Part shown: positions 3,125-33,275 of the stretch, one piece after another
How positions within the stretch are numbered: position 1 is the stretch's first letter
Layout: every line of letters begins with the position of its first letter
Virus record (IMG/VR): IMGVR_UViG_3300021091_000226
Span: 1-34,425 of that record
DNA: 34,425 nt
Direction: 5' to 3' (one strand)
Source: a virus
The notes under the pieces: model-generated
The model's database searches: none
The model's input: the letters and a program-made list of their open reading frames with translations, nothing else
Told to the model about the DNA's origin: nothing
Position numbers and translations under genes: made by a program

Positions 3125-3137
3125 ATGGTATTGGACT

Positions 3138-18623: not shown

Positions 18624-19187
18624 CTAATCGCTTGGCACAACATCACCGGACACGCTTACAGCTTTACGCATCCTCCATCGTGTGAGTGCCGCAAGCCGAG
18701 CGGCGACACGTTTTTTCGGTGATGATTTTCTGCCCCCGAGACTCCCGAGGTATTGCATCCTTTTTCGCACAGCGGCTTCAACGTGAGTCACACTATTTTT
18801 GGTGCCTAGTTGTGTCAACACAAAATTTGTTATTCTCTTCTTTGCCGCATCACGGCGGGCGGTTTTGGGGTTTGGGGGCTTGGTATTGCAGGCTCGCTTG
18901 CATTCCCGGCAACAGGCCCGGCAACCCCGCCACCGCTCCTCATCGGCCAAGATGTTCTGAGGATCACACAGGTAGACGTTTTTGCCGTTGATCGACCTAA
19001 TCCTGACAAAAGTGGTCATATAGTCCGGCTGGGGCTCCCTAGGCTCAAATTCCTTGGCTAGGAGCAGTTGCCCGTCCGGATCCATGGGCCGGCTGTCCAC
19101 CGAGAGATTCCCCAGCACAACAACCGAAGCACCTATCCCCAAAGGGACATGTGGGAATCTCTGCTGTTTCGGGCAATAGGTTCTCAT
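18624..19187 (-). CDS. Cys-rich hypothetical protein with GG-Lys/Arg module
   Basis: 187 residues from ATG at 19187. Residues about 75-100 carry a Cys cluster (CDPQNILADEERWRGCRACC, then RECKRAC), possibly a metal site. The C-terminal part (RMQYLGSLGGRKSSPKKRVA, then ALTRW) matches the LG-x-LGG-Lys/Arg-x-RW module common in small phage proteins. A variant of the start motif (AGAACA, 7 bases, TAGTT) lies just upstream; 4 bases after TAGTT there is an out-of-frame ATG that would give a different 48-residue peptide, so the start is uncertain. Met34 is an alternative start. Confidence 0.5.
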   Translation of the reverse strand: MRTYCPKQQRFPHVPLGIGASVVVLGNLSVDSRPMDPDGQLLLAKEFEPREPQPDYMTTFVRIRSINGKNVYLCDPQNILADEERWRGCRACCRECKRACNTKPPNPKTARRDAAKKRITNFVLTQLGTKNSVTHVEAAVRKRMQYLGSLGGRKSSPKKRVAARLAALTRWRMRKAVSVSGDVVPSD

Positions 19188-19213
19188 CCATATACAACTA
19201 CCCACCGTGTTCT
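19188..19213 (-). promoter_or_regulatory. Start-associated motif, variant
   Basis: AGAACA, 7 bases, TAGTT, 8 bases, ATG at 19187. A degenerate minus-strand copy with T-A-G instead of T-A-A. Confidence 0.5.
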
Positions 19214-19222
19214 TGTTCAAGG

Positions 19223-19258
19223 ACGAGTGTCACGAGTGTCACGAGTGTCACGCTGTCA
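19223..19258. repeat. Four 9-bp tandem repeats (ACGAGTGTC family)
   Basis: ACGAGTGTC occurs three times head to tail at 19223, 19232 and 19241, followed by the degenerate ACGCTGTCA. It lies between two minus-strand genes. Possible iterons for an initiator or an operator array. Confidence 0.8.
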
Positions 19259-19304
19259 CAACACGTTTTTTGGCTCTTTTTACCCTGTGACACTTGTGAC
19301 ACTC
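19234..19304. repeat. 18-bp inverted repeat around a T-rich loop
   Basis: GAGTGTCACGAGTGTCAC at 19234-19251 pairs with GTGACACTTGTGACACTC at 19287-19304 with one mismatch, leaving a 35-base spacer with two runs of T. Each arm itself holds two copies of GTGTCAC, so this is a palindrome built from direct repeats. Confidence 0.8.
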
Positions 19305-19305
19305 G

Positions 19306-19373
19306 GTAGCGATCCTAGCATTCCTAGCATTCCTAGCGTGGCTAGCACCCCTAGCACCCCTAGCACCCCTATT
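19306..19373. repeat. 9-bp tandem repeats (CTAGC every 9 bases)
   Basis: CTAGC recurs at exactly 9-base steps at 19315, 19324, 19333, 19342, 19351 and 19360. A degenerate unit flanks each side (GTAGC at 19306, CTATT at 19369). Variable positions shift from ATT to ACC along the array. The array ends at the stop of the next minus-strand gene. Confidence 0.85.
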
Positions 19374-19374
19374 A

Positions 19375-19854
19375 TCAGTTCAGCCCGGGCTCAAGCATCT
19401 GATGGCGACGGGCGGTGTCCTTCAGGACCGAAAACTCCCTCGAAACGGCCATCTTCGCCAAAGAAATCTTCCCCCCGATACCCGTAAGCAACTCGTCCAA
19501 GGTATCGGCTGATCCCCTCAACTGCCATTCCAGCCCATGTCCGGGGGCATTCTTGAGCCTCTTAAACTCAAACCTCGGCCGCACCGAGAATCCCCAAGCC
19601 CTGTAAAGGTCGCTTGCCGGCTGGCATCGGCACCACAAATAGCCGTGGGCACAATACCCTCCCCCGCCCAAGGAGCCATTCCGGTAGAACCGAAGCAGGG
19701 CCACCCACTCCTGAGGATCCTCCCCTCCCCTCATGCTCACCCAGCACCCCATGAAGTCCGAGGCATCCAGCCCTTGAATCTGCTTGTAGGTGTGAGGATG
19801 GTTATTCTTCATCTTCCGGGCATCAAGTGACGTTTCAAAAAGGAACATACGCAT
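19375..19854 (-). CDS. Hypothetical protein, first gene of the divergent pair
   Basis: 159 residues from ATG at 19854, beginning MRMFLFETSLDARKMKNNHP. A longer frame exists, but this start is fixed by a perfect start-associated motif 5 bases before it. The middle is rich in Gly, Trp and Cys (GCWVSMRGGEDPQEWVALLR; GGGGYCAHGYLWCRC). No family recognised. The 9-bp repeat array begins right after its stop. It is divergent to the plus-strand gene at 19982. Confidence 0.55.
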   Translation of the reverse strand: MRMFLFETSLDARKMKNNHPHTYKQIQGLDASDFMGCWVSMRGGEDPQEWVALLRFYRNGSLGGGGYCAHGYLWCRCQPASDLYRAWGFSVRPRFEFKRLKNAPGHGLEWQLRGSADTLDELLTGIGGKISLAKMAVSREFSVLKDTARRHQMLEPGLN

Positions 19855-19877
19855 GATGCAATTACCCGCCGTGTTTT
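19855..19877 (-). promoter_or_regulatory. Start-associated motif, minus strand
   Basis: AAAACA, 7 bases (CGGCGGG), TAATT, 5 bases, ATG at 19854. Exact geometry on the minus strand, which shows the motif follows gene direction. Confidence 0.85.
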
Positions 19878-19958
19878 TAAACGCAAGCCTTTGTGTTGAG
19901 TTGTTAAAATAATCCTTGCCCACCCCACCGCCTCACGTAGCCGGATGAGGGTGAGCAA
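19878..19958. promoter_or_regulatory. Divergent intergenic region
   Basis: About 80 bases between two outward-facing start motifs. It is the natural place for divergent promoters. I see an A/T-rich stretch (GTTGTTAAAATAATC) but no convincing -35/-10 pair. Confidence 0.4.
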
Positions 19959-19981
19959 AAAACAAGCCGGGTAATTGGTTT
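19959..19981 (+). promoter_or_regulatory. Start-associated motif (gene 19982)
   Basis: AAAACA, 7 bases (AGCCGGG), TAATT, 5 bases, ATG. Exact geometry. Confidence 0.85.
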
Positions 19982-20350
19982 ATGAACAACCAAATTACCG
20001 AGACGGCATTTCAGTATATCCGCCAACGCATCGGGGATAAGAAGTCCCCCACCATCGAGTCTTTCATGCTCTTAAGCATGATGGATCGGGCCCTGACCAT
20101 CAGGAGAAAGAGCAAGGATCAGCCTGAAAAGAGTGCCTCCGTGGGGGTCACCCAGCTTCTCTTCTTCTTGGCCATCCTTGTTTCCGACCGGAAGGGGCTT
20201 TGCCGGTGGGGCAGCCTTCTCCCAAGCATAGCCATGTTGGACACCAAGCCCTTCCCCGATGAGCCGGAGTTCTTTTCCGACCTTCGTAAAAACGGGGCAG
20301 AGATGCGGGACGACTACTATGACCTCGTCAAAAGGGCCTCGGCGGGGTGA
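19982..20350 (+). CDS. Hypothetical protein, first gene of the plus-strand accessory run
   Basis: 122 residues. A helical N-terminus (FQYIRQRIGDKKSPTIESFM) leads into a hydrophobic middle (VGVTQLLFFLAILVSDRKGL), which could be a buried helix or a membrane segment, and a Tyr/Asp-rich end. No family recognised. It is headed by a perfect start motif and its stop overlaps the HNH gene's GTG (GTGA). Confidence 0.55.
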   Translation: MNNQITETAFQYIRQRIGDKKSPTIESFMLLSMMDRALTIRRKSKDQPEKSASVGVTQLLFFLAILVSDRKGLCRWGSLLPSIAMLDTKPFPDEPEFFSDLRKNGAEMRDDYYDLVKRASAG

Positions 20351-20631
20351 AGCGATGCTTTCTACGGCGCAAAACCCCGCTTCGTCCTTTTACGCAGAAG
20401 CGAAAGGGCCAGCTGGATACCTACAGAAAGTTAAGACTTTCCTATCTAAAAAAGTTCCGCTTCTGCCGGCTCTGCGGGAAGAAGGCCACACAGATTCACC
20501 ACAAACGGGGGCGTATCGGATGGCGTCTCTGCGCCGAGGAATTCTTCATGGCGATCTGCCAAGACTGTCACGCCGACATCCACGCCAATGGAAGATGGGC
20601 CCGAGAAAAGGGCTTCATCTTACCCGCCTAA
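20347..20631 (+). CDS. HNH endonuclease
   Basis: 94 residues from GTG at 20347. The zinc-knuckle and active-site layout is Cys40-x2-Cys43, His51-His52, Cys71-x2-Cys74-His75 and His79 (CRLCGKK; QIHHKRGR; CQDCHADIH). The N-terminus is very basic. HNH nucleases cut or nick DNA; in phages they serve packaging, homing or host DNA breakdown. The small size and lack of other domains fit a stand-alone phage HNH. Confidence 0.8.
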   Translation: MKRCFLRRKTPLRPFTQKRKGQLDTYRKLRLSYLKKFRFCRLCGKKATQIHHKRGRIGWRLCAEEFFMAICQDCHADIHANGRWAREKGFILPA

Positions 20632-20632
20632 A

Positions 20633-20911
20633 ATGATTGGACGAGTTGGATTGGTTGCCGCACACCGAGGCGCTTGGGCGTGGAGGCACAAAAGAATTGA
20701 GATCAAGAGACCCTACTCAAGAAGAAAAAAGGTCAAGGCAGACCGCCTTTGGCAAGGGCAGAATACGCCCGAGCTTAGTTTCGCCCTAGTGGACAAAGAC
20801 AGGAACATCATGAAGTTCTCCATGATGACCTACGGCGAGGCATTTAGACGCAACCGCACCACTAAGGCCTTTGGATTTGCTTGGGTCAGATGCGATAGGA
20901 GGAAAAAATGA
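20633..20911 (+). CDS. Small basic hypothetical protein
   Basis: 92 residues from ATG at 20633, one base after the HNH stop; a longer in-frame version would overlap the HNH gene. The N-terminal half is Arg/Lys-rich (HRGAWAWRHKRIEIKRPYSR) and the rest is mixed alpha/beta with a Phe/Thr-rich end. No family recognised. It overlaps the next gene by ATGA. Confidence 0.5.
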   Translation: MIGRVGLVAAHRGAWAWRHKRIEIKRPYSRRKKVKADRLWQGQNTPELSFALVDKDRNIMKFSMMTYGEAFRRNRTTKAFGFAWVRCDRRKK

Positions 20912-21261
20912 GCTACGAAATTGAAGAAGCACCGGATCCCATCCGTGCGCTAAACTGGATGCGGGACAACGCCGAGAAGCTGGCAAACGCCAAGGCCGAA
21001 AAGGCCTACATCGACCAGTTTCTTAAGAGCAAGAAGGCCGTCCTCATGCAGGAGCTTGCCAAGCAATACCCCAACATGCCCTTGGCCGCACAGGAACGGG
21101 ATGCCGTGGCCCACGAGGAATACCTTGCCCTGCTCAAGGCCCACAAAGAGGCCGTGTTTATCGAGGAGAAAATGAAAGCCCTCATGACGGCGGCACAAAA
21201 TCAGATCGAAATTTGGCGTACCCTCGAAAGCACCAAGAGGGCCGAGCTCAAGGCGTTTTAG
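20908..21261 (+). CDS. Helical phage protein of a recurrent type
   Basis: 117 residues, almost all helix. The pattern DQFLKSKKAVLMQELAKQYP, then HEEYLALLKAHKEA and QIEIWRTLESTKRAEL recalls a recurrent small phage protein often found near recombination genes. No catalytic motif. It overlaps neighbours by 4 bases and by 1 base, so it is cotranslated with the methyltransferase. Confidence 0.55.
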   Translation: MSYEIEEAPDPIRALNWMRDNAEKLANAKAEKAYIDQFLKSKKAVLMQELAKQYPNMPLAAQERDAVAHEEYLALLKAHKEAVFIEEKMKALMTAAQNQIEIWRTLESTKRAELKAF

Positions 21262-21809
21262 TGGACAAGGTCGACCTAGCCGTCACCGCCGGAGAACGGG
21301 GGCGTGAGGATACCCAATGGTTCACCCAAGGGCTTGCCGCAACACTCTGCTCTGCCCTGCCCATGCCCAACCGCCTATGGCTTGATGTGGGTGCTGGAAT
21401 GGGCAGGTCGCGGGAAAGAATCGAGCCGCACGGCTTTCGGGTTATCACCCAAGACCCCGCACCCGACCTTCCGGTGGACACCGACCAGCCCTTGGAAAAG
21501 ATTTACGGGGAGTTTGGGGTGGTGTCGGCCTTCGATGTGATCGAGCACGTCAAGGATGTGCCAGCCTTCACCAAGGAGCTTTCCAGACTTAGTTGCGGGT
21601 ACGTTGTCCTATCAGCCCCCCTTGATTCGGACAGCATATATCACTTCCAAGTCTTCACGCCGCAATATCTACTGCAACAAACCTCATGCATCGGGAGGCT
21701 TTTATTGGCCTACGAGCTTGGAGAGGGATGGGTAAGGCGCATGGATCAACGCATCAAAGAGGGCTTTGGCGCCCTGCTTGTATACAGCGTGGGTAATTGG
21801 GGGGTATGA
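21261..21809 (+). CDS. SAM-dependent methyltransferase (class I)
   Basis: 182 residues from GTG at 21261, which shares one base with the previous TAG. Motif I is LDVGAGMGRS (41-50), an acidic residue (ITQDPAP) ends strand 2, and FDVIEH (91-96) is the post-I motif seen in small-molecule or methionine/biotin-type methyltransferases. No DNA-methylase catalytic motif (DPPY or PCQ) is visible, so the substrate is probably not DNA bases directly. Its last codons carry a start-motif copy used by the small gene that follows. Confidence 0.7.
   Translation: MDKVDLAVTAGERGREDTQWFTQGLAATLCSALPMPNRLWLDVGAGMGRSRERIEPHGFRVITQDPAPDLPVDTDQPLEKIYGEFGVVSAFDVIEHVKDVPAFTKELSRLSCGYVVLSAPLDSDSIYHFQVFTPQYLLQQTSCIGRLLLAYELGEGWVRRMDQRIKEGFGALLVYSVGNWGV
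21781..21805 (+). promoter_or_regulatory. Start-associated motif, weak copy (gene 21806)
   Basis: TATACA, 7 bases, TAATT, then 7 instead of 5 bases before ATG. It lies inside the methyltransferase coding sequence. Confidence 0.5.
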
Positions 21810-21910
21810 AATACTTATTCTATCTGTTCTGGTTCAACCTCGGCCTCTGGCTGGGGCTGGCCCTCACCATCATCCCAATCCTGCTGATCCGGGCGATCTT
21901 CAAGATATGA
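21806..21910 (+). CDS. 34-residue membrane peptide
   Basis: Starts MKYLFYLFWFNLGLWLGLAL and ends RAIFKI: a single hydrophobic helix with a short basic end. ATGA overlaps at both ends and a start-motif copy upstream support a real gene. Possible membrane-disturbing or superinfection role; no family recognised. Confidence 0.6.
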   Translation: MKYLFYLFWFNLGLWLGLALTIIPILLIRAIFKI

Positions 21911-22426: not shown

Positions 22427-22713
22427 GAAAGGGCTCGAAGGTTGTCTGCGTCGATGATCGGTTCCCGCCGGAGCTTTTCATTTACTACACACAACTCCCC
22501 CTCAAGGACCGCACCTATACCGTCAGGGACATGGGCGTGGGAATTTCCCACAAGGGCGAGGTCGGGGAGGTCGTGGTCTATCTGGTGGAGCTAACCAACC
22601 CCGCATCCAGCAAGCCCCCTCACCCCGAGCGAGGCTTCGCACAATGGAGGTTTCGGGAGATTGAGCCGCCCGTCGAGTCCGAGGAGGTGGAGGTCTTGGA
22701 ACAAGTCGGGTAA
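22423..22713 (+). CDS. Recurrent small phage protein (KVVCVDD type)
   Basis: 96 residues. KVVCVDDRFP, LPLKDRTYTVRDMG, YLVELTNP and ERGFAQWRFREIEPP make a pattern I recall from many unnamed phage and prophage proteins; it is probably a small SH3-like barrel. Function unknown. The stop TAA at 22711-22713 is the first three bases of the TAATT of the next start motif. Confidence 0.65.
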   Translation: MRKGSKVVCVDDRFPPELFIYYTQLPLKDRTYTVRDMGVGISHKGEVGEVVVYLVELTNPASSKPPHPERGFAQWRFREIEPPVESEEVEVLEQVG

Positions 22714-22720
22714 TTGGGGC
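22698..22720 (+). promoter_or_regulatory. Start-associated motif (gene 22721)
   Basis: GGAACA, 7 bases, TAATT, 5 bases, ATG. First box degenerate; its TAA ends the upstream gene. Confidence 0.75.
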
Positions 22721-23044
22721 ATGGCACAACAATGGGATATAATTGGCAGACACAAACTAAAGGGGTTCAAAAACAGCCCATGGGTCATGGTCAAAAGAAG
22801 GGTCAAGATCCGGAAGGCAAAGAATCTATGGGACTGCTACTGGTTTAACACACAGACACGCATCTTCACAAAATACATGGCCGAGCCCAGCTACAAAAGG
22901 GCAATAGGCACAAAGGGGCAGGAATCAGCATCCTCCCTTCTTCTGGAACGGGATTCCGGTGATATATGGGCTTGCCCAAGGCGGTCCCTCCGCTTCTTCC
23001 GAGGGGTTGGGCAGATGGAGCTTTTCCAAAAACATCGGGGGTAA
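22721..23044 (+). CDS. Small basic hypothetical protein
   Basis: 107 residues from ATG at 22721, chosen because of the start motif. It is Lys/Arg-rich with many Trp (WVMVKRRVKIRKAKNLWDCY) and a C-terminal RSLRFFRGVGQMELF. No family recognised. The last codons read through the next start motif. Confidence 0.5.
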   Translation: MAQQWDIIGRHKLKGFKNSPWVMVKRRVKIRKAKNLWDCYWFNTQTRIFTKYMAEPSYKRAIGTKGQESASSLLLERDSGDIWACPRRSLRFFRGVGQMELFQKHRG

Positions 23045-23051
23045 TTGAGCC
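23029..23051 (+). promoter_or_regulatory. Start-associated motif (gene 23052)
   Basis: AAAACA, 7 bases (TCGGGGG), TAATT, 5 bases, ATG. Exact geometry. Confidence 0.85.
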
Positions 23052-23657
23052 ATGCCAAACTGGATTACAAACGAACTAACGATTGATACAAACGCAGTCT
23101 CGAAGTCCATCAAGGAAGAACTCAAGTTTTATGTTTCCAAGGATGACGACGGGAAGGAGGGGCTGGACTTCGACAGGGTCATTCGGATGCCCCCTTCCCT
23201 GCAAATCACCGCCGGCGGGTCGGTGGAGGAGGCCATGGCCGTCATCAAGGGCGATCTTAAGTTTTTCTCGGAAAGATTGAAGTGGTGGAAGGGCAAGGGT
23301 TCTTGGCTTGAAAAGGAGGGCATCAAGACCGCAAAGGCCTTAATGGAACACAGCCGAAAACGCCTTTCTGAAAAGGAACTGGGCGAAGGCAAGACGGCCA
23401 TCGAGAATTTAAGGAAATACGGCCACAAGGATTGGTATGACTGGTGTTGTGCTAACTGGGGGACGAAGTGGAACGCCTCCGACACGCATTGGAACGACAA
23501 CTCGGTCTCCTTCCTCACCGCTTGGGCTCCGCCCGATCCGGTCATCCAGAAGATGGCCGATGAGACAGGACACGCTATCCAGAATATGTGGTTCGATGAG
23601 GGCGATGTTGAGGATGTCCATTATACGACATTCTCTCCGAACAGCGGGGATAATTAG
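23052..23657 (+). CDS. Api92/YubB-like protein (ferredoxin-like domain)
   Basis: 201 residues. The N-terminus MPNWITNELTI, the block YGHKDWYDWCCANWGTKW at 123-140 and FLTAWAPPDPVI at 154-165 are hallmarks of the DUF1281/YubB/Api92 group of phage and plasmid proteins with a ferredoxin-like domain. Their function is not established; they are often found in anti-defence or early regions. The residue usually Cys at position 5 is Ile here. Confidence 0.75.
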   Translation: MPNWITNELTIDTNAVSKSIKEELKFYVSKDDDGKEGLDFDRVIRMPPSLQITAGGSVEEAMAVIKGDLKFFSERLKWWKGKGSWLEKEGIKTAKALMEHSRKRLSEKELGEGKTAIENLRKYGHKDWYDWCCANWGTKWNASDTHWNDNSVSFLTAWAPPDPVIQKMADETGHAIQNMWFDEGDVEDVHYTTFSPNSGDN

Positions 23658-23670: not shown

Positions 23671-23916
23671 ATGAACACAGACATGACCGATATAACTAAA
23701 TCCAAGGCTCATTCTTTCAGGGTTAAGAAAGATATCCTAGCTAGGCTGGAGCAGATTAAAAAGAATAACTCAAATGCTTATGAGGTTTATTTGGACAAGA
23801 ACGATGGGGATTCTCAAGACGCAAAGGATTCTTTTTATATCACGCACTACTTGGCCTTTGACGAGATTCTCCATGCTGTTGAATGGTGCGTAAAAAAAAC
23901 AAGGACACCGGAATGA
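23671..23916 (+). CDS. Small hypothetical protein
   Basis: 81 residues from ATG at 23671 with AAAGGA upstream. It is charged and helical (HSFRVKKDILARLEQIKKNN), with a Tyr/Asp middle and a helical end (HYLAFDEILHAVEWCVKK). The first part resembles ribbon-helix-helix-like DNA binders only vaguely. More A/T-rich than its neighbours. ATGA overlap with the next gene. Confidence 0.5.
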   Translation: MNTDMTDITKSKAHSFRVKKDILARLEQIKKNNSNAYEVYLDKNDGDSQDAKDSFYITHYLAFDEILHAVEWCVKKTRTPE

Positions 23917-24097: not shown

Positions 24098-24508
24098 ATG
24101 ATTACAAAACAACTACTACAAAACATACGGAATCAAATTAACCCACAGCTGGAGGCCATAAACAAGAAGTCATCAGACTTTTCGCTCCGATTGGGCAACT
24201 GCACATACGACAGCGACATCGCCACCTTCAAGCTAGAGGTATGCTCGGTGGAAAAGGGTTCCGTTATCACCAAGGAGTTGTCCTCCCTGCGTCAAACGTA
24301 TTCCATTTACGGACTGACCGAGGCCGACCTTACGAAGGAGTTTGCGACCAGTCGGGGCAAGGCAAGGCTCTGCGGACTCAAGCCAAGGGCGGAAAAGTGC
24401 TTCATCTTCGAGATATTGGATGGGCAAAACAAGGGCAAGAAGTATGTCACCAAGCTGGAGGCAATCAAAACCTATCTTGGAAAAACAAAGGGGCTAATTA
24501 GCACATGA
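24098..24508 (+). CDS. Hypothetical protein with ribosome-site start
   Basis: 136 residues. Unlike most neighbours it lacks the TAATT box; an A-rich leader with AGAAAGGA precedes it. An amphipathic N-terminal helix is followed by beta-rich sequence (KLEVCSVEKGSVITKEL; CFIFEILDGQNKGKKYVTKL) that resembles a small DNA- or RNA-binding barrel in outline only. Its 3' end contains the start motif of the next gene. Confidence 0.55.
   Translation: MITKQLLQNIRNQINPQLEAINKKSSDFSLRLGNCTYDSDIATFKLEVCSVEKGSVITKELSSLRQTYSIYGLTEADLTKEFATSRGKARLCGLKPRAEKCFIFEILDGQNKGKKYVTKLEAIKTYLGKTKGLIST
24482..24504 (+). promoter_or_regulatory. Start-associated motif (gene 24505)
   Basis: AAAACA, 7 bases (AAGGGGC), TAATT, 5 bases, ATG. 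It lies within the previous gene's last codons. Confidence 0.8.
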
Positions 24509-25232: not shown

Positions 25233-25282
25233 TCTTCGTGGTGCGGGAGGGGCTAAAAACACCGAGGGTAATTAAACCATGA
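25229..25282 (+). CDS. 17-residue coupling ORF (tentative)
   Basis: ATG at 25229 overlaps the previous stop and its TGA at 25280 overlaps the next ATG, giving MIFVVREGLKTPRVIKP. It reads straight through the start motif. It may only keep ribosomes moving between the two genes, or be chance. Confidence 0.25.
   Translation: MIFVVREGLKTPRVIKP
25256..25278 (+). promoter_or_regulatory. Start-associated motif (gene 25279)
   Basis: AAAACA, 7 bases (CCGAGGG), TAATT, 5 bases, ATG. Exact geometry. Confidence 0.85.
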
Positions 25283-25650: not shown

Positions 25651-25835
25651 AATACCTACACGCCTTTGATCTTGTATCTTGCGTGGAAAACGAACACGAA
25701 GACTTTTACAACACGCCCAAAGAGGAACTTATCAATGCGATGAGGGCAAGGCTATCCGGCCTAACGGACGAAGAGGTCTTTGATGCGTTTGGCCACATTG
25801 AAACTAATTGCATTGAAAACAAGGGGGGTAATTAG
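25647..25835 (+). CDS. Small acidic protein with TTG start
   Basis: 62 residues if translation starts at TTG 25647 (TTGA overlap); an upstream in-frame ATG at 25578 lies inside the previous gene. The sequence runs KYLHAFDLVSCVENEHEDFY and continues helical and acidic. It ends with Gly-Gly-Asn encoded by the next start motif (GGT AAT TAG). Confidence 0.5.
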   Translation: MKYLHAFDLVSCVENEHEDFYNTPKEELINAMRARLSGLTDEEVFDAFGHIETNCIENKGGN

Positions 25836-26429: not shown

Positions 26430-27015
26430 GGTTGCCACAACTCTGCTCACGAAGTCGCCGAGGCTACCGCTTCGACCCTATTCGTGCGTCACGGCACTTC
26501 AGTTGGAGTCCTTTCGTGAGTGGAGTTTCGAGCCAAAGGTAAACGGCTGGCGATGTGTTGTGGATGCCGAGCGTGGAAGGGTGATTTCACGGCACGGCAC
26601 AACCTTCGCCGAGTCGGGACACATTCTGGACATTGTCGCAACCACGCCGAACCTTGCTGGCCTTGGCTTGCTTGACTGCGAGTTCCTTGGGAGGAGAACC
26701 AAGGCTGGCAAGGGATCGGTTGTGGTGATGGATGTGATGGACTCCACCCTCTCCTATCTGGAGAGACGCACCCTGCTGGACGGCTTGTGCGAAGTTCCGC
26801 TGGACGACATCCCCAAAAACGCAATCCTCCGCTTCCCCGCATACACACAAGAACAGGCAAGACTCATTCTGGAGGATATGCGGGAGGTGAATGAACGCCG
26901 TTGCGAGGTGATTTGGGAGGGATTTGTCGCCAAGCACAACGCCTCACCCTATCCCCGCCGATACGACCAAAACGAATGTCGGTTTTGGGCAAAGGCTCGA
27001 CTCCTCACCGCATAA
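26419..27015 (+). CDS. ATP-dependent DNA/RNA ligase-like adenylation domain
   Basis: 198 residues from ATG at 26419. Nucleotidyltransferase motifs appear in order: motif I EPKVNGWR with Lys40 as the expected adenylated lysine, motif III-like LLDCEFLG with Glu88, motif IV EGFVAK at 167-172 and motif V WAKAR at 190-194. Most DNA ligases have K-x-D-G at motif I; here it is K-V-N-G. The chain ends right after motif V, so the C-terminal OB domain is missing. It may be a minimal ligase, an RNA ligase-like enzyme or a domain that works with a partner. Confidence 0.7.
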   Translation: MSVEVATTLLTKSPRLPLRPYSCVTALQLESFREWSFEPKVNGWRCVVDAERGRVISRHGTTFAESGHILDIVATTPNLAGLGLLDCEFLGRRTKAGKGSVVVMDVMDSTLSYLERRTLLDGLCEVPLDDIPKNAILRFPAYTQEQARLILEDMREVNERRCEVIWEGFVAKHNASPYPRRYDQNECRFWAKARLLTA

Positions 27016-27036
27016 AACACGCAGGGTAATTGGAGC
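27014..27036 (+). promoter_or_regulatory. Start-associated motif (gene 27037)
   Basis: AAAACA, 7 bases (CGCAGGG), TAATT, 5 bases, GTG. The only copy that precedes a GTG start. Confidence 0.85.
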
Positions 27037-28245
27037 GTGAGGAAATTCACGCTCAAGAAATTCAAAAGAAAATACGGCATCGGGGGACTGGACGATGTCG
27101 ATTCGGACATCATACCGGCCTACCTACAAACACTTCGGGAATATGTCGATGACGGAGCCAATTACTCCGACTTCTCCGCTTTCTACGAAACCAACAAAAA
27201 CAACGGAGGTAATTCAAATATGAGAAAATCAAAGCAACTTCGTGACAGATGGTATGCCCGATGCCTCGACATCAGCATCGCCGAACTCGACAAGGAAAAA
27301 AAGCGGTGGGAAACCCGCAAGCAGAATTGGGGCAAACTTTCCTATATTCGTGGTGGCCTCAAGGTGAACCCTTACAAGCCGACCATTGAGGAAAAATACT
27401 TCGAGTCTTTTAAGGGCGACCTCTGCTCCGTTGAGCTTGAGTGCGTCTTTCAGCGTGAGTCCGACATCCCCAGCGTTCGAACCCTTGGCCGATACTTAAT
27501 CGAACATGAAGACGATGGCTCTCTCGAATACTATCCCGATAAAAACGAGGACAGGGACGAGTCGGAAGACAACTGCGAGGAGTCCGAAAATGAAGATTGG
27601 GGTGCGGCAGAATTCAAAGTCACCTTTCGACACGAACGCCCCCTTCGACTCCGATCTGTTGTCGATAAACTCAACCTTCACGGAGCCGAGGTAAACACCA
27701 CTTGCGGGATGCACGTTCATCTCGACCAGCGTGGAATCTCCTCTGCGATGGCATCCAAGCGAGCCAAGCGACTTATCAAATGCCTACCCGCATTGACGCA
27801 GATTGTCGCCCCCTCCCGCTTGGGGAACCACTACTGCTCGATGAATCGCCCGATCCGCAGGGGGACGAACTATCGCCACCAGACTGACCGCTACTTGGCG
27901 ATCAATCATTCCTCTGCCTACTGCGAGCATACCACCACGGAGAACAGGCTACACGGAGGGACGCTGGACTTCTGGAAGATTATGGGATGGGTCGATCTCA
28001 ATAAATGGATTATGCGTTCCGCCGAGGTCGATGCGAAGGCAGACGAAAACTCGCTTCGAGCCACCAATGGCGAGGTGAGTGTCACCTTGGAGGATATGAT
28101 TCGATTCAAGACCCTCCCCGAAACCATCCGCCAATATATGTGGAGACGATTTCGGCAGTTTCATCCGACCAAAGCTATTGAGCTTCGGGAGAAACTGATT
28201 CACGACGATCTTCACCGCCTAACCGATGGCTATGCGGTCAGCTAA
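27037..28245 (+). CDS. Amidoligase-like (GS-fold COOH-NH2 ligase), with N-terminal extension
   Basis: 402 residues from GTG at 27037. From about residue 130 the pattern fits Amidoligase_2: VELEC at 132-136, CGMHVHLD at 223-230, a helical middle with HYCSMN, and ENRLHGGTLDFWKIMGW at 302-318. Enzymes of this glutamine-synthetase-like fold use ATP to join a carboxyl to an amine. Residues 1-61 are a separate charged segment. A perfect start motif sits in frame inside the gene, with ATG at 27220 (Met62), so a shorter 341-residue product is likely too. A glutamine amidotransferase follows 21 bases downstream. Confidence 0.75.
   Translation: MRKFTLKKFKRKYGIGGLDDVDSDIIPAYLQTLREYVDDGANYSDFSAFYETNKNNGGNSNMRKSKQLRDRWYARCLDISIAELDKEKKRWETRKQNWGKLSYIRGGLKVNPYKPTIEEKYFESFKGDLCSVELECVFQRESDIPSVRTLGRYLIEHEDDGSLEYYPDKNEDRDESEDNCEESENEDWGAAEFKVTFRHERPLRLRSVVDKLNLHGAEVNTTCGMHVHLDQRGISSAMASKRAKRLIKCLPALTQIVAPSRLGNHYCSMNRPIRRGTNYRHQTDRYLAINHSSAYCEHTTTENRLHGGTLDFWKIMGWVDLNKWIMRSAEVDAKADENSLRATNGEVSVTLEDMIRFKTLPETIRQYMWRRFRQFHPTKAIELREKLIHDDLHRLTDGYAVS
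27197..27219 (+). promoter_or_regulatory. Start-associated motif inside the amidoligase frame
   Basis: AAAACA, 7 bases (ACGGAGG), TAATT, 5 bases, ATG at 27220, in frame with the GTG-started gene. It reads as NNGGNSNM in protein. Confidence 0.85.
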
Positions 28246-28266
28246 AACAGAAAGGATAATTAAGCT
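28244..28266 (+). promoter_or_regulatory. Start-associated motif (gene 28267)
   Basis: AAAACA, 7 bases (GAAAGGA), TAATT, 5 bases, ATG. Exact geometry. Confidence 0.85.
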
Positions 28267-29343
28267 ATGTGCAGACTAATTGGATTCTCAACCGATAAAC
28301 CCCTTGAGCAGGACAAACTCGACAAGATGGTTTCAACTTGCCGAGACTTGCTGAAGGATCAGAAGGACGGATTCGGATATGCCCTTTCGGGCGGGGAGAT
28401 TGATGGCATCACCCATCTACGCCTAGTGACAGGCAGTCTTCTCGGATACGGCTACGACCCCCTTGGCGAGTGGGAATCCGTTGCCAAGCCTACCTACGAC
28501 CAGCAGGGCGATGTCAAACCCTGCACGGCTGGACTATTCCACGGACGGACTTCGACCAACGATGTCGGTATTAAAAATACCCATCCCTTCGTGAACGAGG
28601 AGCTTGCCTTGGCACATAACGGCATTGTCGATTATTCGGGACCTCATCGCAAAAAGATCGGGACTTGTGACAGCGAAGACCTTTTCAACACCTTCACCAA
28701 GGGCAAGGGCTGGAAGGAGCTTGCTAAATACTACGAGGGATATGCCGCCCTTCTGATTTTACGCAAGGATGGGCATCTCACCCTCTATCGGGATGAAACC
28801 CCTTCCCTCTATGTGATTCGCTTCACCACGGACACGGCAAGCGGGTTTGTGGTGGCAACATCAGCCTATGACGGCACGGAGGCAGTCAAACAAGTCTTCG
28901 GTTGCGTTCCCAACGCACCGATTCAGGTGAAGGCAAACCATGTAGTTTCGACCAAGCACGGAGCCATCCTCGACAAGAAGCGGGTCAAACCCATCGCTAG
29001 GAAAAGCTACGCCAAAGACCAGTTGTCCCTTGGCTACGGCACCAGCTACTACCCAAAGAAAGAGGACAAGTCGGCGACAGGGACTTGGGTCGCAGATGGC
29101 GACAAGGAGGACACAGGAGTTGGCGACTACCAAGGCCAAGGCACGGACACTGATTTTCAAACAGGGTATGACGAGGGGTATCAAGATTCATACAACGACA
29201 CAGGCTATTATCCAGACAACACGCAATCCAAGAAATTCCAAGACGGCTACGAAAAGGGATATTTGGGGGGAGAAAAAGAAAAGGCCAAGATCGGGGAAGT
29301 CGATTTTGAAGAGGATTCGGAGCTGGAGGTAGCACCCTTCTGA
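28267..29343 (+). CDS. Class II glutamine amidotransferase
   Basis: 358 residues. The N-terminus MCRLIGF puts the catalytic Cys at position 2 (exposed after Met removal), as in Ntn-type GATase II. HGRTST (92-97), THPF (105-108), AHNG (116-119), a DSED loop (135-138) and GYAAL (159-163) match the glutaminase site. It would release ammonia from glutamine for a partner. Residues after about 240 are a Gly/Tyr/Asp-rich tail with two related repeats (FQTGYDEGYQDS and FQDGYEKGYLGG). The partner is probably the adjacent amidoligase; no synthase domain is fused. Confidence 0.85.
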   Translation: MCRLIGFSTDKPLEQDKLDKMVSTCRDLLKDQKDGFGYALSGGEIDGITHLRLVTGSLLGYGYDPLGEWESVAKPTYDQQGDVKPCTAGLFHGRTSTNDVGIKNTHPFVNEELALAHNGIVDYSGPHRKKIGTCDSEDLFNTFTKGKGWKELAKYYEGYAALLILRKDGHLTLYRDETPSLYVIRFTTDTASGFVVATSAYDGTEAVKQVFGCVPNAPIQVKANHVVSTKHGAILDKKRVKPIARKSYAKDQLSLGYGTSYYPKKEDKSATGTWVADGDKEDTGVGDYQGQGTDTDFQTGYDEGYQDSYNDTGYYPDNTQSKKFQDGYEKGYLGGEKEKAKIGEVDFEEDSELEVAPF

Positions 29344-29365
29344 AAACATTCGGGGTAATTCCAGT
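29343..29365 (+). promoter_or_regulatory. Start-associated motif (gene 29366)
   Basis: AAAACA, 7 bases (TTCGGGG), TAATT, 5 bases, ATG. Starts on the last base of the previous stop. Confidence 0.85.
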
Positions 29366-29629: not shown

Positions 29630-29733
29630 AGAAACGCAAGCAATTCAAACCCAACTGGAAAGAAATAAGGAAACGACCAGAGATTAAGCTACTCAAACTA
29701 AAACTTCTGAAAGTTGGATGGGTATTGAAATAA
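29626..29733 (+). CDS. 35-residue basic peptide
   Basis: Begins MKKRKQFKPNWKEIRKRPEI and ends LLKLKLLKVGWVLK. It is very basic and leucine-rich and could be an amphipathic helix. ATGA overlap with the previous gene supports it. The stop overlaps the next start motif. Nothing else can be said. Confidence 0.45.
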   Translation: MKKRKQFKPNWKEIRKRPEIKLLKLKLLKVGWVLK

Positions 29734-29753
29734 ACAAACAGGGTAATTCAAAT
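29731..29753 (+). promoter_or_regulatory. Start-associated motif (gene 29754)
   Basis: TAAACA, 7 bases (AACAGGG), TAATT, 5 bases, ATG. The N5 (CAAAT) is identical to the copy at 27197. Confidence 0.8.
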
Positions 29754-30089
29754 ATGAGCGATCTAACAGACGATACAAAACTAAATTGTGCAGGTGAGTT
29801 TATTACGGCCTGCGAAAATCCCCACCAATTAAGCCAAGCAGTTGAGCTTCTGTCTCTATTGCTAAATGGAGAAAGAAGCCACGCCGAGGCTTGTTTCGCC
29901 AGCTTGGAGTATGTCGAAAATATCTCCGATGCCTTGGCATACTCGATTGAACAGGCAAAGGATCACTACAGGGACATAGACGACGAACAAAGCAGAACAA
30001 CACTACAGGAGGAAGTCTTGACTCAAATTCTTGAGTTTTCCCACGCCTACCTAGCCAAGGCCTACGAAAAGAAAGTCGGGAGGGCATAA
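29754..30089 (+). CDS. Small helical acidic protein
   Basis: 111 residues from ATG at 29754 fixed by the start motif. Helices (HQLSQAVELLSLLLNGERSH; DALAYSIEQAKDHYRDIDDE) suggest a small all-alpha bundle. No family recognised. The next start motif begins at its last stop base. Confidence 0.5.
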   Translation: MSDLTDDTKLNCAGEFITACENPHQLSQAVELLSLLLNGERSHAEACFASLEYVENISDALAYSIEQAKDHYRDIDDEQSRTTLQEEVLTQILEFSHAYLAKAYEKKVGRA

Positions 30090-30111
30090 AAACATTATGA
30101 GTAATTACTTT
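30089..30111 (+). promoter_or_regulatory. Start-associated motif (gene 30112)
   Basis: AAAACA, 7 bases (TTATGAG), TAATT, 5 bases, ATG. No G-run in the spacer, yet both boxes are kept. Confidence 0.8.
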
Positions 30112-30267
30112 ATGCAAATCAAAGAAACCAAGGAACAACTAACGGACGGAAGGCTAAAAGTCGTCCGAACAATCAGAAAACCAAACTTATCGCTTGTCGA
30201 TATTGTGACTTACGAAAAGCCGTTAGCTATGTCCGAAATCTACTGGAACAAAGGGGGAAGAAAATGA
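30112..30267 (+). CDS. 51-residue hypothetical protein
   Basis: Begins MQIKETKEQLTDGRLKVVRT and continues RKPNLSLVDIVTYEKPLA. It is basic and looks like a small beta structure. Start motif upstream and ATGA overlap downstream support it. No family recognised. Confidence 0.5.
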   Translation: MQIKETKEQLTDGRLKVVRTIRKPNLSLVDIVTYEKPLAMSEIYWNKGGRK

Positions 30268-30647
30268 GCAAGAAAACAAAGGCAAAGCAGACCGCAGACC
30301 TCAGCGACAGACTTCTGGCATTCGTATCGGGATGCCTTGGGCTATCCAGTTCGCTCCCCGATGACAGGGTCGGGACGGAATTGGCGGAAGCAATCCTAAA
30401 ACCCGCAGTCGCATCCTATTTTCGCCACGGAGAGGCAGAGGGGTGTGCCACGGCAAAGGAGTTCACCCAAAAGTTTCGGGAAACATTGGGCGAGTTGCGG
30501 ATTGCACGGAGAGCCTTGATTCTTATCAAAACCAACGGAAAAGCCGAGGCGGGGCGACAAGCCGAACGGCTCCACGAGGCTTGTGATGAGCTTGTGAGGG
30601 CTTTCTTCCAGTCGGTAAGAGTCCTCGAAAACAAGGCGGGTAATTAA
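30264..30647 (+). CDS. Helical protein, four-helix-bundle-like
   Basis: 127 residues. Helical segments (DLSDRLLAFVSGCLGL; TAKEFTQKFRETLGELRIAR; AERLHEACDELVRAFFQSVR) and the SLGELR-like turn recall the S23/IVP four-helix bundle proteins. Function of these in phages is unknown. The final residues AGN are encoded by the next start motif, whose TTAA ends the gene. Confidence 0.5.
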   Translation: MSKKTKAKQTADLSDRLLAFVSGCLGLSSSLPDDRVGTELAEAILKPAVASYFRHGEAEGCATAKEFTQKFRETLGELRIARRALILIKTNGKAEAGRQAERLHEACDELVRAFFQSVRVLENKAGN

Positions 30648-30650
30648 GGC
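30628..30650 (+). promoter_or_regulatory. Start-associated motif (gene 30651)
   Basis: AAAACA, 7 bases (AGGCGGG), TAATT, 5 bases, ATG. It also supplies the upstream gene's stop (TAA within ATTAAG). Confidence 0.85.
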
Positions 30651-30911
30651 ATGAAACAAAAAACCAACCGACAAGTCTTCAAACAGGCGATTCAAAACTT
30701 GGATGACATCACCTTGGCGATTCTTCGTGAGAGGATTCTCTCGATCACCGAGGCCACGCTTCGGGACAAGGAGGAGGTCAAGAAACAGATGACTGGCTCC
30801 TTCTTCAATCCCGAAAGCTGGATTGGGTTCATCGAGAAAATTCACGATCAATTCAAATTCGAGAATAGCGGGAAGTTCTTTTTCAACACGCCAACCACAA
30901 AGGTCGGATGA
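30651..30911 (+). CDS. Small hypothetical protein
   Basis: 86 residues, basic N-terminus (MKQKTNRQVFKQAIQNLDDI), helical centre with an LRERILSIT core, and a Phe/Asn-rich end (FKFENSGKFFFNTP). No family recognised. ATGA overlap with the next gene. Confidence 0.5.
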   Translation: MKQKTNRQVFKQAIQNLDDITLAILRERILSITEATLRDKEEVKKQMTGSFFNPESWIGFIEKIHDQFKFENSGKFFFNTPTTKVG

Positions 30912-31243
30912 GCGATAGGTTTATGAACACAACTGAAATAGATTACTACGGCGAAACCGACAACTACATCCACCTCAAATTCGGGGATTGTAGAAAGGCT
31001 TACAATTTCACAAAGGAGTTCAAAAAAGCACATCCAGATTTCGTAAAGAAATATAAGCGATATTGGGACAGGGAGGACGGAGATTTTGACGACTTTAAAA
31101 GCCCCTTTCAAGTGGTGGCCTATGCCTTCAAGAAAAACATTCCAGTTCACTTTTATTACAACTACACGGACGAACCTGCAAAGGGGTATGAGGACATCAT
31201 CGACTACTTGGTGCGAGAAAACACCTTCGTTCCAGAGAAATGA
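30908..31243 (+). CDS. Small aromatic-rich hypothetical protein
   Basis: 111 residues, rich in Tyr, Phe, Asp and Lys (YYGETDNYIHLKFGDCRKAY; FKKAHPDFVKKYKRYWDRED). Mixed alpha/beta. An internal ATG at 30923 is possible, but the ATGA overlap favours 30908. It may be a small globular anti-host protein; no family recognised. Confidence 0.5.
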   Translation: MSDRFMNTTEIDYYGETDNYIHLKFGDCRKAYNFTKEFKKAHPDFVKKYKRYWDREDGDFDDFKSPFQVVAYAFKKNIPVHFYYNYTDEPAKGYEDIIDYLVRENTFVPEK

Positions 31244-31383
31244 AAGACTTGCCCAAGGGACTGACATACTTCGTCCGCACGGAGTCACTCGCAGTTCCCG
31301 CACAACCGAGGACGCATTATGCGGTAAAGTCGGTTTCACCCGCTGGCTTGGCGGGGGCGATAAATCCAAGCCAAAAACTTTAA
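31240..31383 (+). CDS. 47-residue hypothetical protein
   Basis: Starts MKDLPKGLTYFVRTESLAVP and ends PAGLAGAINPSQKL. ATGA overlap with the previous gene; its TAA lies inside the next start motif's 7-base spacer. No family recognised. Confidence 0.5.
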   Translation: MKDLPKGLTYFVRTESLAVPAQPRTHYAVKSVSPAGLAGAINPSQKL

Positions 31384-31396
31384 GGGTAATTAAGGT
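31374..31396 (+). promoter_or_regulatory. Start-associated motif (gene 31397)
   Basis: AAAACT, 7 bases (TTAAGGG), TAATT, 5 bases, ATG. One base off in the first box. Confidence 0.8.
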
Positions 31397-31675
31397 ATGA
31401 ACCCCAAAATCAAGGAAGCGATCAAGAAAGAATTAGACCCTATTGATGTTGAGCAACGCTATCGGGACTTGCTCGATGAAGTTTATCCAGAGGTGAAAAT
31501 AGGCTATGCAACCTATTCCCCTTCCCAAATCGTGGAAGAGCTTTCTCCCACGGACTTTAGGGTCGGGGTGGCCGACTACACAGGAACCGAGGAAAACCTC
31601 ACCGAGGTTGATGGCGAGTATTACGACACAAGCGAGGTGGATGAAATCACGGAACGAATCGGGGACGACACCTAA
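31397..31675 (+). CDS. Small phage protein (SPSQIVEELSPTDFRVG type)
   Basis: 92 residues. YSPSQIVEELSPTDFRVGVA followed by DYTG matches a short element I recall in many small phage proteins (a DP-x-aromatic-R-x-G turn before an acidic residue). The N-terminus is a charged helix and the C-terminus is very acidic. Function unknown. Confidence 0.6.
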   Translation: MNPKIKEAIKKELDPIDVEQRYRDLLDEVYPEVKIGYATYSPSQIVEELSPTDFRVGVADYTGTEENLTEVDGEYYDTSEVDEITERIGDDT

Positions 31676-31682
31676 ACGCCAG

Positions 31683-31705
31683 AAAACAAACAGACTAATT
31701 AGAGC
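31683..31705 (+). promoter_or_regulatory. Start-associated motif (gene 31706)
   Basis: AAAACA, 7 bases (AACAGAC), TAATT, 5 bases, ATG. No G-run, so pairing to rRNA is weak here. Confidence 0.85.
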
Positions 31706-31849
31706 ATGAACAACACAACCATCACAGACGGCGAAAAGGAGCAGAACGAAAGAATCAAATCCAACTTGGCAGAGGTCGATTGGGGAAACACCTCCCTCGA
31801 AGAACTGGAGGATATTTTCGAGGACAGAGACCCCTTGGAATTCCTTTGA
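31706..31849 (+). CDS. 47-residue acidic protein
   Basis: Starts MNNTTITDGEKEQNERIKSN and ends EELEDIFEDRDPLEFL. Strongly acidic, like small phage DNA mimics in charge, though very short. It has its own start motif and a 45-base gap before the next gene. No family recognised. Confidence 0.5.
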   Translation: MNNTTITDGEKEQNERIKSNLAEVDWGNTSLEELEDIFEDRDPLEFL

Positions 31850-31871
31850 TCGGGGAAACCAAAGAACCCCA

Positions 31872-31894
31872 AAAACATCCAAACTAATTAGAGT
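31872..31894 (+). promoter_or_regulatory. Start-associated motif (gene 31895)
   Basis: AAAACA, 7 bases (TCCAAAC), TAATT, 5 bases, ATG. Exact geometry. Confidence 0.85.
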
Positions 31895-32314
31895 ATGAAC
31901 GAAACCAACCAGCAGATCGTGAATGTAGCCAAGGAAGCGATTGAGAAAATCTTAACGCTTACCGAGGCGACCCAAAACCCAAGCACGGAAACCCCCAACC
32001 GAGACGCTGAAGAGCGTCATTTTGGCGAGTCGGTAATCGACAGGGCAGTCGATAAAATTCTGGACGATAAGAGCCAGATACAGGACGACATTGTTGATCG
32101 AGTTGCCGACACAATCGACAACTCTGACATCAGCGACTTGGTATATGATCGCCTTGAGATTGACGACATTGTCAGTTCAGTTGCGGAGCGAATTGATGAC
32201 GATGAAATTGCCGACAAGCTGGCCGACAATATTGTCGAGAGCGATGACTTCTATAAAAGGCTAGTCGAGGCACTTATCCAGAAGATTGCGAAAACCGAGG
32301 AGGCGAAGGCCTAG
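31895..32314 (+). CDS. Acidic amphipathic-repeat protein
   Basis: 139 residues, strongly acidic. Residues 50-130 are built from short helices of similar plan (VIDRAVDKILDD, IVDRVADTIDNS, LVYDRLEIDDIV, VAERIDDDEIADKLADNI), each with Ile/Val on one face and Asp/Glu on the other. Such repeats can form an elongated bundle or mimic DNA charge. No family recognised. Confidence 0.6.
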   Translation: MNETNQQIVNVAKEAIEKILTLTEATQNPSTETPNRDAEERHFGESVIDRAVDKILDDKSQIQDDIVDRVADTIDNSDISDLVYDRLEIDDIVSSVAERIDDDEIADKLADNIVESDDFYKRLVEALIQKIAKTEEAKA

Positions 32315-32352
32315 ATTGGGGATCGGGGTGGGAGGTGACTAACCACGCCCGA

Positions 32353-32375
32353 AAAACAGCCGAAGTAATTAAAGT
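32353..32375 (+). promoter_or_regulatory. Start-associated motif (gene 32376)
   Basis: AAAACA, 7 bases (GCCGAAG), TAATT, 5 bases, ATG. Exact geometry. Confidence 0.85.
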
Positions 32376-32540
32376 ATGAACAACTTAAACCTCACCGAAA
32401 TCTACTGGATGCTTGAAAACTGCACGGATGAAATCAACCGAGTTGATGCCTTTGATCGTCTTCTGACCGAGCTAGACACGCCGACACGAATCCACCGCAC
32501 AATCGGACGGATGGAGGAGCTTGCCATCGGGGTCGAATAA
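32376..32540 (+). CDS. 54-residue hypothetical protein
   Basis: Starts MNNLNLTEIYWMLENCTDEI and ends RMEELAIGVE; two charged helices. It has its own start motif. A small CCCCC/GGGGG hairpin (32541-32554) follows its stop directly. No family recognised. Confidence 0.5.
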   Translation: MNNLNLTEIYWMLENCTDEINRVDAFDRLLTELDTPTRIHRTIGRMEELAIGVE

Positions 32541-32554
32541 CCCCCAAGCGGGGG
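32541..32554. terminator. Short GC hairpin after a small gene
   Basis: CCCCC, loop AAGC, GGGGG right after the stop. It is followed by A rather than T on the plus strand, so it is a poor terminator there; it may protect an mRNA end. Confidence 0.3.
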
Positions 32555-32569
32555 AAAACGAGGAACCCA

Positions 32570-32592
32570 AAAACATCCAAGCTAATTAAGGT
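32570..32592 (+). promoter_or_regulatory. Start-associated motif (gene 32593)
   Basis: AAAACA, 7 bases (TCCAAGC), TAATT, 5 bases, ATG. Exact geometry. Confidence 0.85.
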
Positions 32593-32808
32593 ATGAGCAA
32601 AAAACACTTCGAAAAACTGGCGGTTATGGTCGCCAGCATCAAAGACCAAACAGACAAGCAAACAATGACGGAAAGGATGATCGAATTCTGTAGGGATATG
32701 AATCCCAACTTCTCCGCTTCCCGCTTCACGGAAGCGATAAGCGAACTCTCCCAAGGCCTCCGCCCTTGCGGATTCTCAAAAGCAACCTTCGAAGGTATTC
32801 GCAAATGA
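32593..32808 (+). CDS. Small phage protein (NPNFSASRF type)
   Basis: 71 residues. HFEKLAVMVASIKDQTDKQT, then MNPNFSASRFTEAI, matches a recurring small phage protein with a final N-P-x-F-x-x-x-R-F turn. The function of that group is unknown. ATGA overlap with the next gene. Confidence 0.6.
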   Translation: MSKKHFEKLAVMVASIKDQTDKQTMTERMIEFCRDMNPNFSASRFTEAISELSQGLRPCGFSKATFEGIRK

Positions 32809-33032
32809 GTTGCCCCGACTGGACTTGTGACGAGCGAGGGAATACAATCGTTCGAACCCCCCAAGTTGAACCCCCTTGGAAATGGGGAGTTTATACAGGG
32901 AAGGGAGTCGCCGAACCTCGGAACCCTCGCCCGCACGAGGGGGGGAGCGTTCTGGATTCGATAGAGAAACTAGGGGAACTACTGAAGGAATTTCCAGAAG
33001 GGAACCCTTCAGAAAACAGGCGGGGTAATTGA
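32805..33032 (+). CDS. Small hypothetical protein
   Basis: 75 residues from ATG at 32805 (ATGA overlap). Starts MSCPDWTCDERGNTIVRTPQ; Trp/Pro/Gly-rich first half, then a helical acidic end. The last residues RRGN come from the next start motif (GGT AAT TGA). No family recognised. Confidence 0.5.
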   Translation: MSCPDWTCDERGNTIVRTPQVEPPWKWGVYTGKGVAEPRNPRPHEGGSVLDSIEKLGELLKEFPEGNPSENRRGN

Positions 33033-33035
33033 GTT
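33013..33035 (+). promoter_or_regulatory. Start-associated motif (gene 33036), last copy
   Basis: AAAACA, 7 bases (GGCGGGG), TAATT, 5 bases, ATG. Its TGA ends the upstream gene. Confidence 0.85.
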
Positions 33036-33275
33036 ATGCAAACATTCATCAAAACAGCATCGAAAAAAGCAGTTGGCGAGTTTGTGAAAGAAGCCAAGCG
33101 GGTAGGCTACCCAGTAAAGGGCAGTATCAAAGAGGCAAAGATCGAAGTCTTTACCGATGATACCTTGCCCCAAGAACTGGTTTTTAAGGCTATCGCCCCT
33201 TGCCCCAGTTCCAACTTCTGGCTGATGACATTCAACGCCGACTACTGGAAAGAGGGAGCCACGGCGACAGCCTAA
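33036..33275 (+). CDS. Small hypothetical protein
   Basis: 79 residues, basic helical start (FIKTASKKAVGEFVKEAKRV), a beta-rich centre and a Trp-containing end (SSNFWLMTFNADYWKEG). No family recognised. It is the last gene with the start motif; the two genes after the next gap lack it. Confidence 0.5.
   Translation: MQTFIKTASKKAVGEFVKEAKRVGYPVKGSIKEAKIEVFTDDTLPQELVFKAIAPCPSSNFWLMTFNADYWKEGATATA

Follow-up and report, generated by a model that had tools for sequence, protein, structure and literature searches.

The DNA considered here, hereafter the window, is the whole of a 34.4 kb contig (34,425 nucleotides; IMG/VR record IMGVR_UViG_3300021091_000226) that represents about half of the ~65 kb genome of a podovirus with an SU10-type portal, an uncultured virus of bacteria. 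Nearly all of its early genes, by which we mean genes other than those for virion proteins, begin with a two-box motif, AAAACA followed after seven bases by TAATT and usually after five further bases by the start codon, and the virion genes are without it. The copies sit mostly among tightly spaced genes of one strand. In what follows, this motif is interpreted as a set of candidate promoters at the start codon, which would be read by a factor of the phage itself.

The contigs G023 and G004, both from a single metagenome sample other than that of the window, are 94-95% identical to the first 25 kb of the window, and two long relatives, G003 (81%) and G001 (76%), carry about 25 motif copies each, almost all of them five bases from the start. 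Recognised genes of G003 include those for a terminase, an SU10-family portal, a nuclease, an amidoligase, a serine resolvase and a protein with a DnaA DNA-binding domain, and neither an RNA nor a DNA polymerase could be identified. No isolate relative was found by megablast, and the terminase is at most 29% identical to those in INPHARED. As clues to the host, scanning 84,980 species genomes with a terminase profile revealed no prophage relatives, and no tRNAs were found.

The Two-Box Motif at Early Gene Starts

On the plus strand, copies at the regular distance lie at 19959-19976 (start codon 19982), 22698-22715 (first box GGAACA; start 22721), 23029-23046 (23052), 24482-24499 (24505), 25256-25273 (25279), 25816-25833 (25839), 27014-27031 (a GTG at 27037), 27197-27214 (27220, an internal in-frame start of the open reading frame (ORF) that begins at 27037), 28244-28261 (28267), 29343-29360 (29366), 29731-29748 (TAAACA; 29754), 30089-30106 (30112), 30628-30645 (30651), 31374-31391 (AAAACT; 31397), 31683-31700 (31706), 31872-31889 (31895), 32353-32370 (32376), 32570-32587 (32593) and 33013-33030 (33036). 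On the minus strand, one copy at 19860-19877 precedes the start codon at 19854, which diverges from that at 19982. These 19 plus-strand starts and the minus-strand start at 19854 make up 20 of the 23 at which the first-pass annotation had reported the layout, and the remaining three deviate from it. The degenerate copy TATACAGCGTGGGTAATT (TATACA-N7-TAATT, N being any base; 21781-21798, plus strand) stands seven bases before the ATG at 21806, and CGAACAGCGGGGATAATT (CGAACA-N7-TAATT; 23638-23655, plus strand) is parted from the ATG at 23671 by 15 bases that include AAAGGA; both keep the seven-base gap between the boxes. The third, AGAACACGGTGGGTAGTT (19196-19213, minus strand), reads AGAACA-N7-TAGTT and lies eight bases before the ATG at 19187.

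The two minus-strand starts head a leftward block of about 8 kb, in which only these first two genes carry the motif and the closely spaced genes that follow lack it. The motif had been described as absent from both the virion and the recombination genes, which is correct for the former but not for the leftward recombination block, since its two head genes have it.

Exact copies of AAAACA-N7-TAATT-N5-ATG number 16 in the window, and the reversed control pattern has none. With up to three mismatches allowed, the full pattern gives 25 matches against 2.47 expected, a number reached in none of 100 dinucleotide shuffles, and the boxes were as dense neither away from starts nor in shuffled sequence. 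When the gap between the boxes was varied from 0 to 20 with at most one mismatch, a gap of seven gave 19 matches in the window and every other gap 0-2; the gap is constant, as had been claimed, and all 19 of these matches have an RTG five bases downstream. Across the clade of the window (clade W), 79 sites lie at exactly five bases from the start. Contigs with a single match in either of two pattern scans, which may be chance matches, were left out.

The sequence logo reads AAAACA (-23 to -18, counted from the start codon), four variable bases, GGG (-13 to -11), TAATT (-10 to -6), three purines, one variable base and a pyrimidine at -1 before the ATG. It holds no third conserved element upstream as far as -60, and no -35 element. 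The GGG is present in 15-17 of 21 window sites and, in agreement with the earlier description of a frequent but dispensable G-run, is missing from the copies at 31706, 31895 and 32593. Purines are enriched at -5 to -3 in the window sites, and the base at -1 is a pyrimidine in all 21.

A block TAAAATAATCCTTGCCCACCCCACCGCC at 19905-19932 lies in the space that separates the divergent motif genes and has been kept even in G001, at 76% identity; it is possible that it is a promoter, an operator or an origin. An inverted repeat AGAAGGGAACCCTTC (window ~32995-33012) adjoins the motif at 33013, and G001 has a similar sequence before the same gene. Further on, at ~33416-33432, lies the palindrome-like GGTCACAATTTGTGACC, with half sites of the CRP/FNR type; a sequence similar to it is inserted between the divergent genes of G001 (L025, near 7050-7090).

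Change of Letters between Sister Clades

The motif is not the same in all relatives. In clade S (G013-G018 and G020; terminase ~71% identical) the motif of the window is absent, and the same kind of genes begin with CGGAC-N7-GTT(T/G/A)AA-N4-ATG, where again only a gap of seven is enriched. Clade D (G027-G031; portal ~73%) has GCAACA (-23 to -18), four bases, (A/C)GGACT (-13 to -8), a C and six bases before the ATG, at 46 distinct sites and with a gap of four. Clade C (G025; portal 80%) has the window-like forms GAAACA-N7-TAAAT-N5-ATG and CAAACA-N7-TAATT-N5-ATG. In all clades, box 1 lies near -23 to -18. Because the letters change between clades while the position is kept, reading by a host sigma factor or by the ribosome would not be expected, and reading by a phage-encoded factor that co-evolves with its sites would be.

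Promoter or Translation Signal

A pyrimidine occupies position -1 in 83 of 84 motif sites of clade W, 34 of 38 of clade S and 44 of 46 of clade D, compared with 10 of 25, 10 of 18 and 27 of 37 non-motif starts, respectively (p = 5e-11, 0.011 and 0.005, values that are optimistic in that the sites within a clade are partly orthologous). Bacterial RNA polymerase usually prefers to start at a purine (+1) that follows a pyrimidine (-1). Motif genes also seldom overlap the gene upstream (2 of 20, against 9 of 12 non-motif early genes; p = 3e-4, from counts made by hand). In clade S, the motif genes show a median Shine-Dalgarno (SD) pairing of -2.4, against -2.25 for random sequence (p = 0.87), whereas translationally coupled genes without the motif pair above random.

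A natural rearrangement bears on the same question. In the window, the motif at 23638 is followed by an extra gene with an AAAGGA of its own, and the displaced gene at 24098 also has an AAAGGA. In G004, which is 95% identical, this motif copy abuts, at five bases, the gene equivalent to that at 24098. The first-pass annotation had left the choice between a translational site and a promoter giving leaderless mRNA, and the second option is favoured by the letter switch, the pyrimidine at -1, the lack of SD pairing in clade S, the non-overlap of the motif genes and the motif parted from its gene by an insertion.

The amidoligase-like ORF at 27037-28245 (named from its counterpart in G003) has two in-frame starts, GTG at 27037 and ATG at 27220, with a motif at each, and both copies are conserved in G001 and G003, which suggests that it makes two protein forms. 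The presence of two motif-bearing starts in one frame leads us to lean toward a promoter that starts transcription at the start codon.

Two other assignments were rejected, the second of them for clade S only. Were TAATT a canonical sigma70 -10 element at -12 to -7, +1 would come to lie within the ATG, and a -35 element to go with it is lacking. Plain SD pairing does not hold for clade S, where no pairing above random is found; in clades W and D a contribution from it is possible.

Proposed Mechanism

We propose that each copy of the motif would be a compact phage-specific promoter for one early gene or a small group of such genes, with transcription beginning on the first base of the start codon, or a few bases away from it at most, and giving a leaderless or nearly leaderless mRNA. 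Box 2 (TAATT, whose last base is 6 bp before +1) would serve as a -10-like element and box 1 (-23 to -18) as a second recognition element. The reader would be a phage-encoded specificity factor working with the host RNA polymerase, since related phages keep the geometry and change the letters. The leading candidate for this reader is a sigma-factor-like module inside a giant protein; were this protein to be delivered into the cell along with the DNA, this would account for the onset of early-gene expression before any phage gene is expressed.

A Probable Sigma-Like Module in a Giant Protein

The giant protein has 4,400-5,800 amino acids, and its gene lies between those for terminase and portal, outside the window but present in the near-twin G023. 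It contains ddrB-ParB, a HATPase or Strawberry-notch helicase (C domain) and HExxH motifs, and in these domains it is like a polyvalent protein.

A sigma-like stretch in this protein was first spotted by eye and then tested against profiles. The module of clade D, about 230 amino acids long, is encoded at L213:302-991, and that of clade S at L069:16862-17659. In clade D, the sigma70-ECF model TIGR02937 matches with E values of 4.6e-7 to 1.5e-6 in all five genomes, the next matches being to other sigma models only, and Pfam Sigma70_r4_2 matches in all five as well (E = 1.5e-5 to 3e-5 per genome). The TIGR02937 match in clade S has E values of 1.6e-4 to 1.3e-3. An AlphaFold model of the clade S module (pLDDT 59) consists of helices, a disordered linker and further helices, and almost all of its Foldseek matches are sigma factors (best E = 0.028; rmsd 3.2 to the N-terminal domain of SigE). 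The module of the window clade shares a helix-turn-helix with that of clade S (E = 1.7e-5), and the giant protein of clade C has a module of the window type (E = 8e-38). Judged by profile matches, which are significant in clade D, and by predicted structure, a sigma-like module is probably present in clades D and S, and its presence in the window's own clade is tentative. Searches of the modules against PDB by sequence yielded nothing useful. The sigma-like stretch of the G001 giant protein (L027, amino acids ~1467-1533) has its helix-turn-helix in two copies, the second of which was found by hmmsearch with E = 8e-19.

A polymerase of the T7, N4 or crAss type within the giant protein was also considered and rejected, as that protein has no DxDGD-type motif and no Pfam or PDB profile match. 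No other sigma factor or RNA polymerase was recognised besides the candidate module. The link between module and motif is circumstantial: the module is the sole transcription-initiation domain found, and the classes of module and motif agree.

Weighing the Evidence

Several points weigh against the proposed mechanism. The -35 and -10 elements of a canonical sigma70 or ECF promoter are 15-18 bp apart, and the gaps between the boxes, seven in clades W and S and four in clade D, do not fit this spacing. With such gaps, a normally placed sigma region 4 could not read box 1; if box 2 is a -10 element, box 1 would have to be contacted by something else. The GGG of the W motif and the AGGA of the D motif resemble SD sequences, and the W motif genes have a median SD pairing of -5.4, against -2.6 for random sequence, which is comparable to that of SD genes. 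As for the module, none of the sigma scores reaches its curated cut-off (42.9 bits for TIGR02937). In the window clade the match is weak by sequence, with TIGR02937 found in G001 only (E = 4.3e-3), and the AlphaFold model of the W module (pLDDT 53) is uninterpretable. The modules have no Pfam Sigma70_r2 match for region 2, the TIGR02937 matches starting at profile position 42-50, and a profile comparison of the D module with those of S and W is non-significant. The classes of motif and module agree, but both track the phage phylogeny, so that their agreement is not independent evidence, and the module may serve other promoters instead. Finally, the giant protein is presumed to be a packaged virion protein from gene order only.

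The SD-like features would be accommodated by a translation-initiation element, in which the boxes would be part of long shared mRNAs and would attract ribosomes or keep them away, either by way of an RNA-binding protein of the phage or as a specialised ribosome-binding site; RegA of phage T4, for example, represses early mRNAs. The fixed distance to the start codon and the location of most copies within closely packed genes of one strand would also suit such an element. However, SD spacing is normally tolerant, and the clade W sites are placed to the base; the base at -1 is C as well as U, overlapping genes, which are translationally coupled, tend to be without the motif, and the copy before 23671 is retained at a distance of 15 bases from a start with an SD sequence of its own. 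Nor do the clade S motif genes show an SD signal. On balance, we regard a translational role as unlikely but deserving to be kept in mind.

A DNA-level alternative is an operator, in which a phage repressor or activator would bind the motif copies and so regulate many genes together, ordinary promoters lying elsewhere. The many near-identical non-virion sites fit this, the letter switch is what a DNA-binding protein would lead one to expect, small helix-turn-helix proteins are encoded at 10624-10917 and 11944-12273 of the window, and the conserved block at 19905-19932 could contain promoters for the divergent genes. Yet an operator needs neither a base-exact distance from the start, nor sense-only orientation, nor a pyrimidine at -1, and no other conserved promoter element is present upstream of the sites, so that this explanation seems rather improbable to us. 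Least probable is a signal recognised by the host, be it a host sigma promoter or an extended host SD sequence. TAATT is AT-rich like a -10 box and GGG resembles part of an SD sequence, but the letters of a host signal should not switch between related phages at a kept position, no -35 element lies upstream, and neither the W sites free of a G-run (31706, 31895, 32593) nor clade S, which lacks SD pairing, suits such a signal.

Start-codon promoters read by a phage factor are, in our view, the best explanation as a whole, with a probability of roughly 0.55. Its core, namely that these are phage-specific, start-linked early promoters with transcripts beginning at or next to the start codon, is predicted from the sequence and appears likely. 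That a virion-delivered sigma-like module of the giant protein reads the motif is a tentative proposal for which the odds are somewhat below even. It is possible, though less likely than not, that this podovirus lineage injects a sigma factor as part of a giant virion polyprotein, that this domain redirects the host RNA polymerase to the two-box promoters at the start codons of nearly all early genes, and that at least three specificities have arisen as the sigma domain and the letters of its promoters evolved together.

Other Features of the Window

A small protein encoded at 14993-15574 matches the DNA-binding domain of DnaA, its counterpart in G003 being matched by Pfam Bac_DnaA_C, and no recognisable DNA polymerase is present in the phage. 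The virion block at 5106-7676 encodes extremely serine-rich proteins of low complexity. Antisense to the presumed capsid gene of 507 amino acids, a frame of 517 amino acids (1613-3166, minus strand) is open, as it also is in G003, G001 and G023; this frame is probably a compositional by-product.

Relation to Known Systems and Implications

The likeness in concept to the start-associated sequences (SAS) of cluster K mycobacteriophages, noted in the first-pass annotation, is borne out, in that both motifs are non-palindromic, belong to non-structural genes and nearly always precede an ATG. The SAS and its extended form (ESAS) are repeated asymmetric motifs upstream of non-structural start codons, mostly in one orientation and mostly before ATG; the SAS is a single 13-bp block, GGGATAGGAGCCC, with an SD core (AGGAG), typically 3-7 bp from the start, and some copies are accompanied by 17-bp inverted repeats (PMC3203893). 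Both systems place an asymmetric motif within a few bases of non-structural starts. In contrast to the SAS, the motif described here is split into two boxes, keeps a near-constant five-base distance, lacks an SD core shared by the clades and has no inverted repeat, and the window logo, AAAACA-N4-GGG-TAATT, does not match the 13-bp consensus with its AGGAG core.

In terms of mechanism, the nearest precedents by analogy would be the sigma factors of phiEco32-like phages, together with the RNA polymerases that N4 and P23-45 carry in their virions. The phiEco32-like sigmas (phi32_gp36 and 7-11 gp47) redirect the host RNA polymerase, and their promoter letters differ between relatives; the promoters are single-element, phi32_gp36 starts transcription 6-8 bp downstream, and the sigma is a separate middle-gene product for middle and late genes, the early genes using host sigma70 (PMC8948821). 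The phages considered here are likewise podoviruses, with an SU10-type portal, and likewise differ in letters between relatives, but the candidate factor forms one domain within a giant protein presumed to belong to the virion, and the motif is found at the start codons of non-virion genes. In N4 and the Thermus phage P23-45, a giant injected virion RNA polymerase drives early transcription from a conserved motif, and relatives of P23-45 without the fused polymerase are also without the motif (PMC4496689, PMC10770324). Unlike in these phages, the giant protein here has no polymerase motif or profile match, and a specificity factor would be delivered instead.

By its domains, the giant protein resembles the polyvalent phage proteins, which are giant and multidomain (PMC5512222); the term "sigma" does not occur in the main text of that survey. 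Leaderless genes of Deinococcus-Thermus have a promoter element adjoining the start codon that is an ordinary -10 element of host promoters (PMC12340547), as compared with the phage-specific two-box motif here, whose letters vary by clade. A full-text literature search for a sigma factor in a phage virion protein, in connection with early transcription and ECF, returned no paper, which is weak evidence of novelty as much subscription literature lies outside such a search.

If the proposed mechanism is correct, these phages would have a further route to early transcription, relying neither on host promoters nor on a carried polymerase, but on a carried specificity factor. Three letter sets that occur in nature on a common geometry would supply ready-made orthogonal factor and promoter pairs and a testable case of co-evolution between a promoter and its factor. 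The start-associated motifs of phages, which so far have been described but poorly explained, would then have a concrete explanation.

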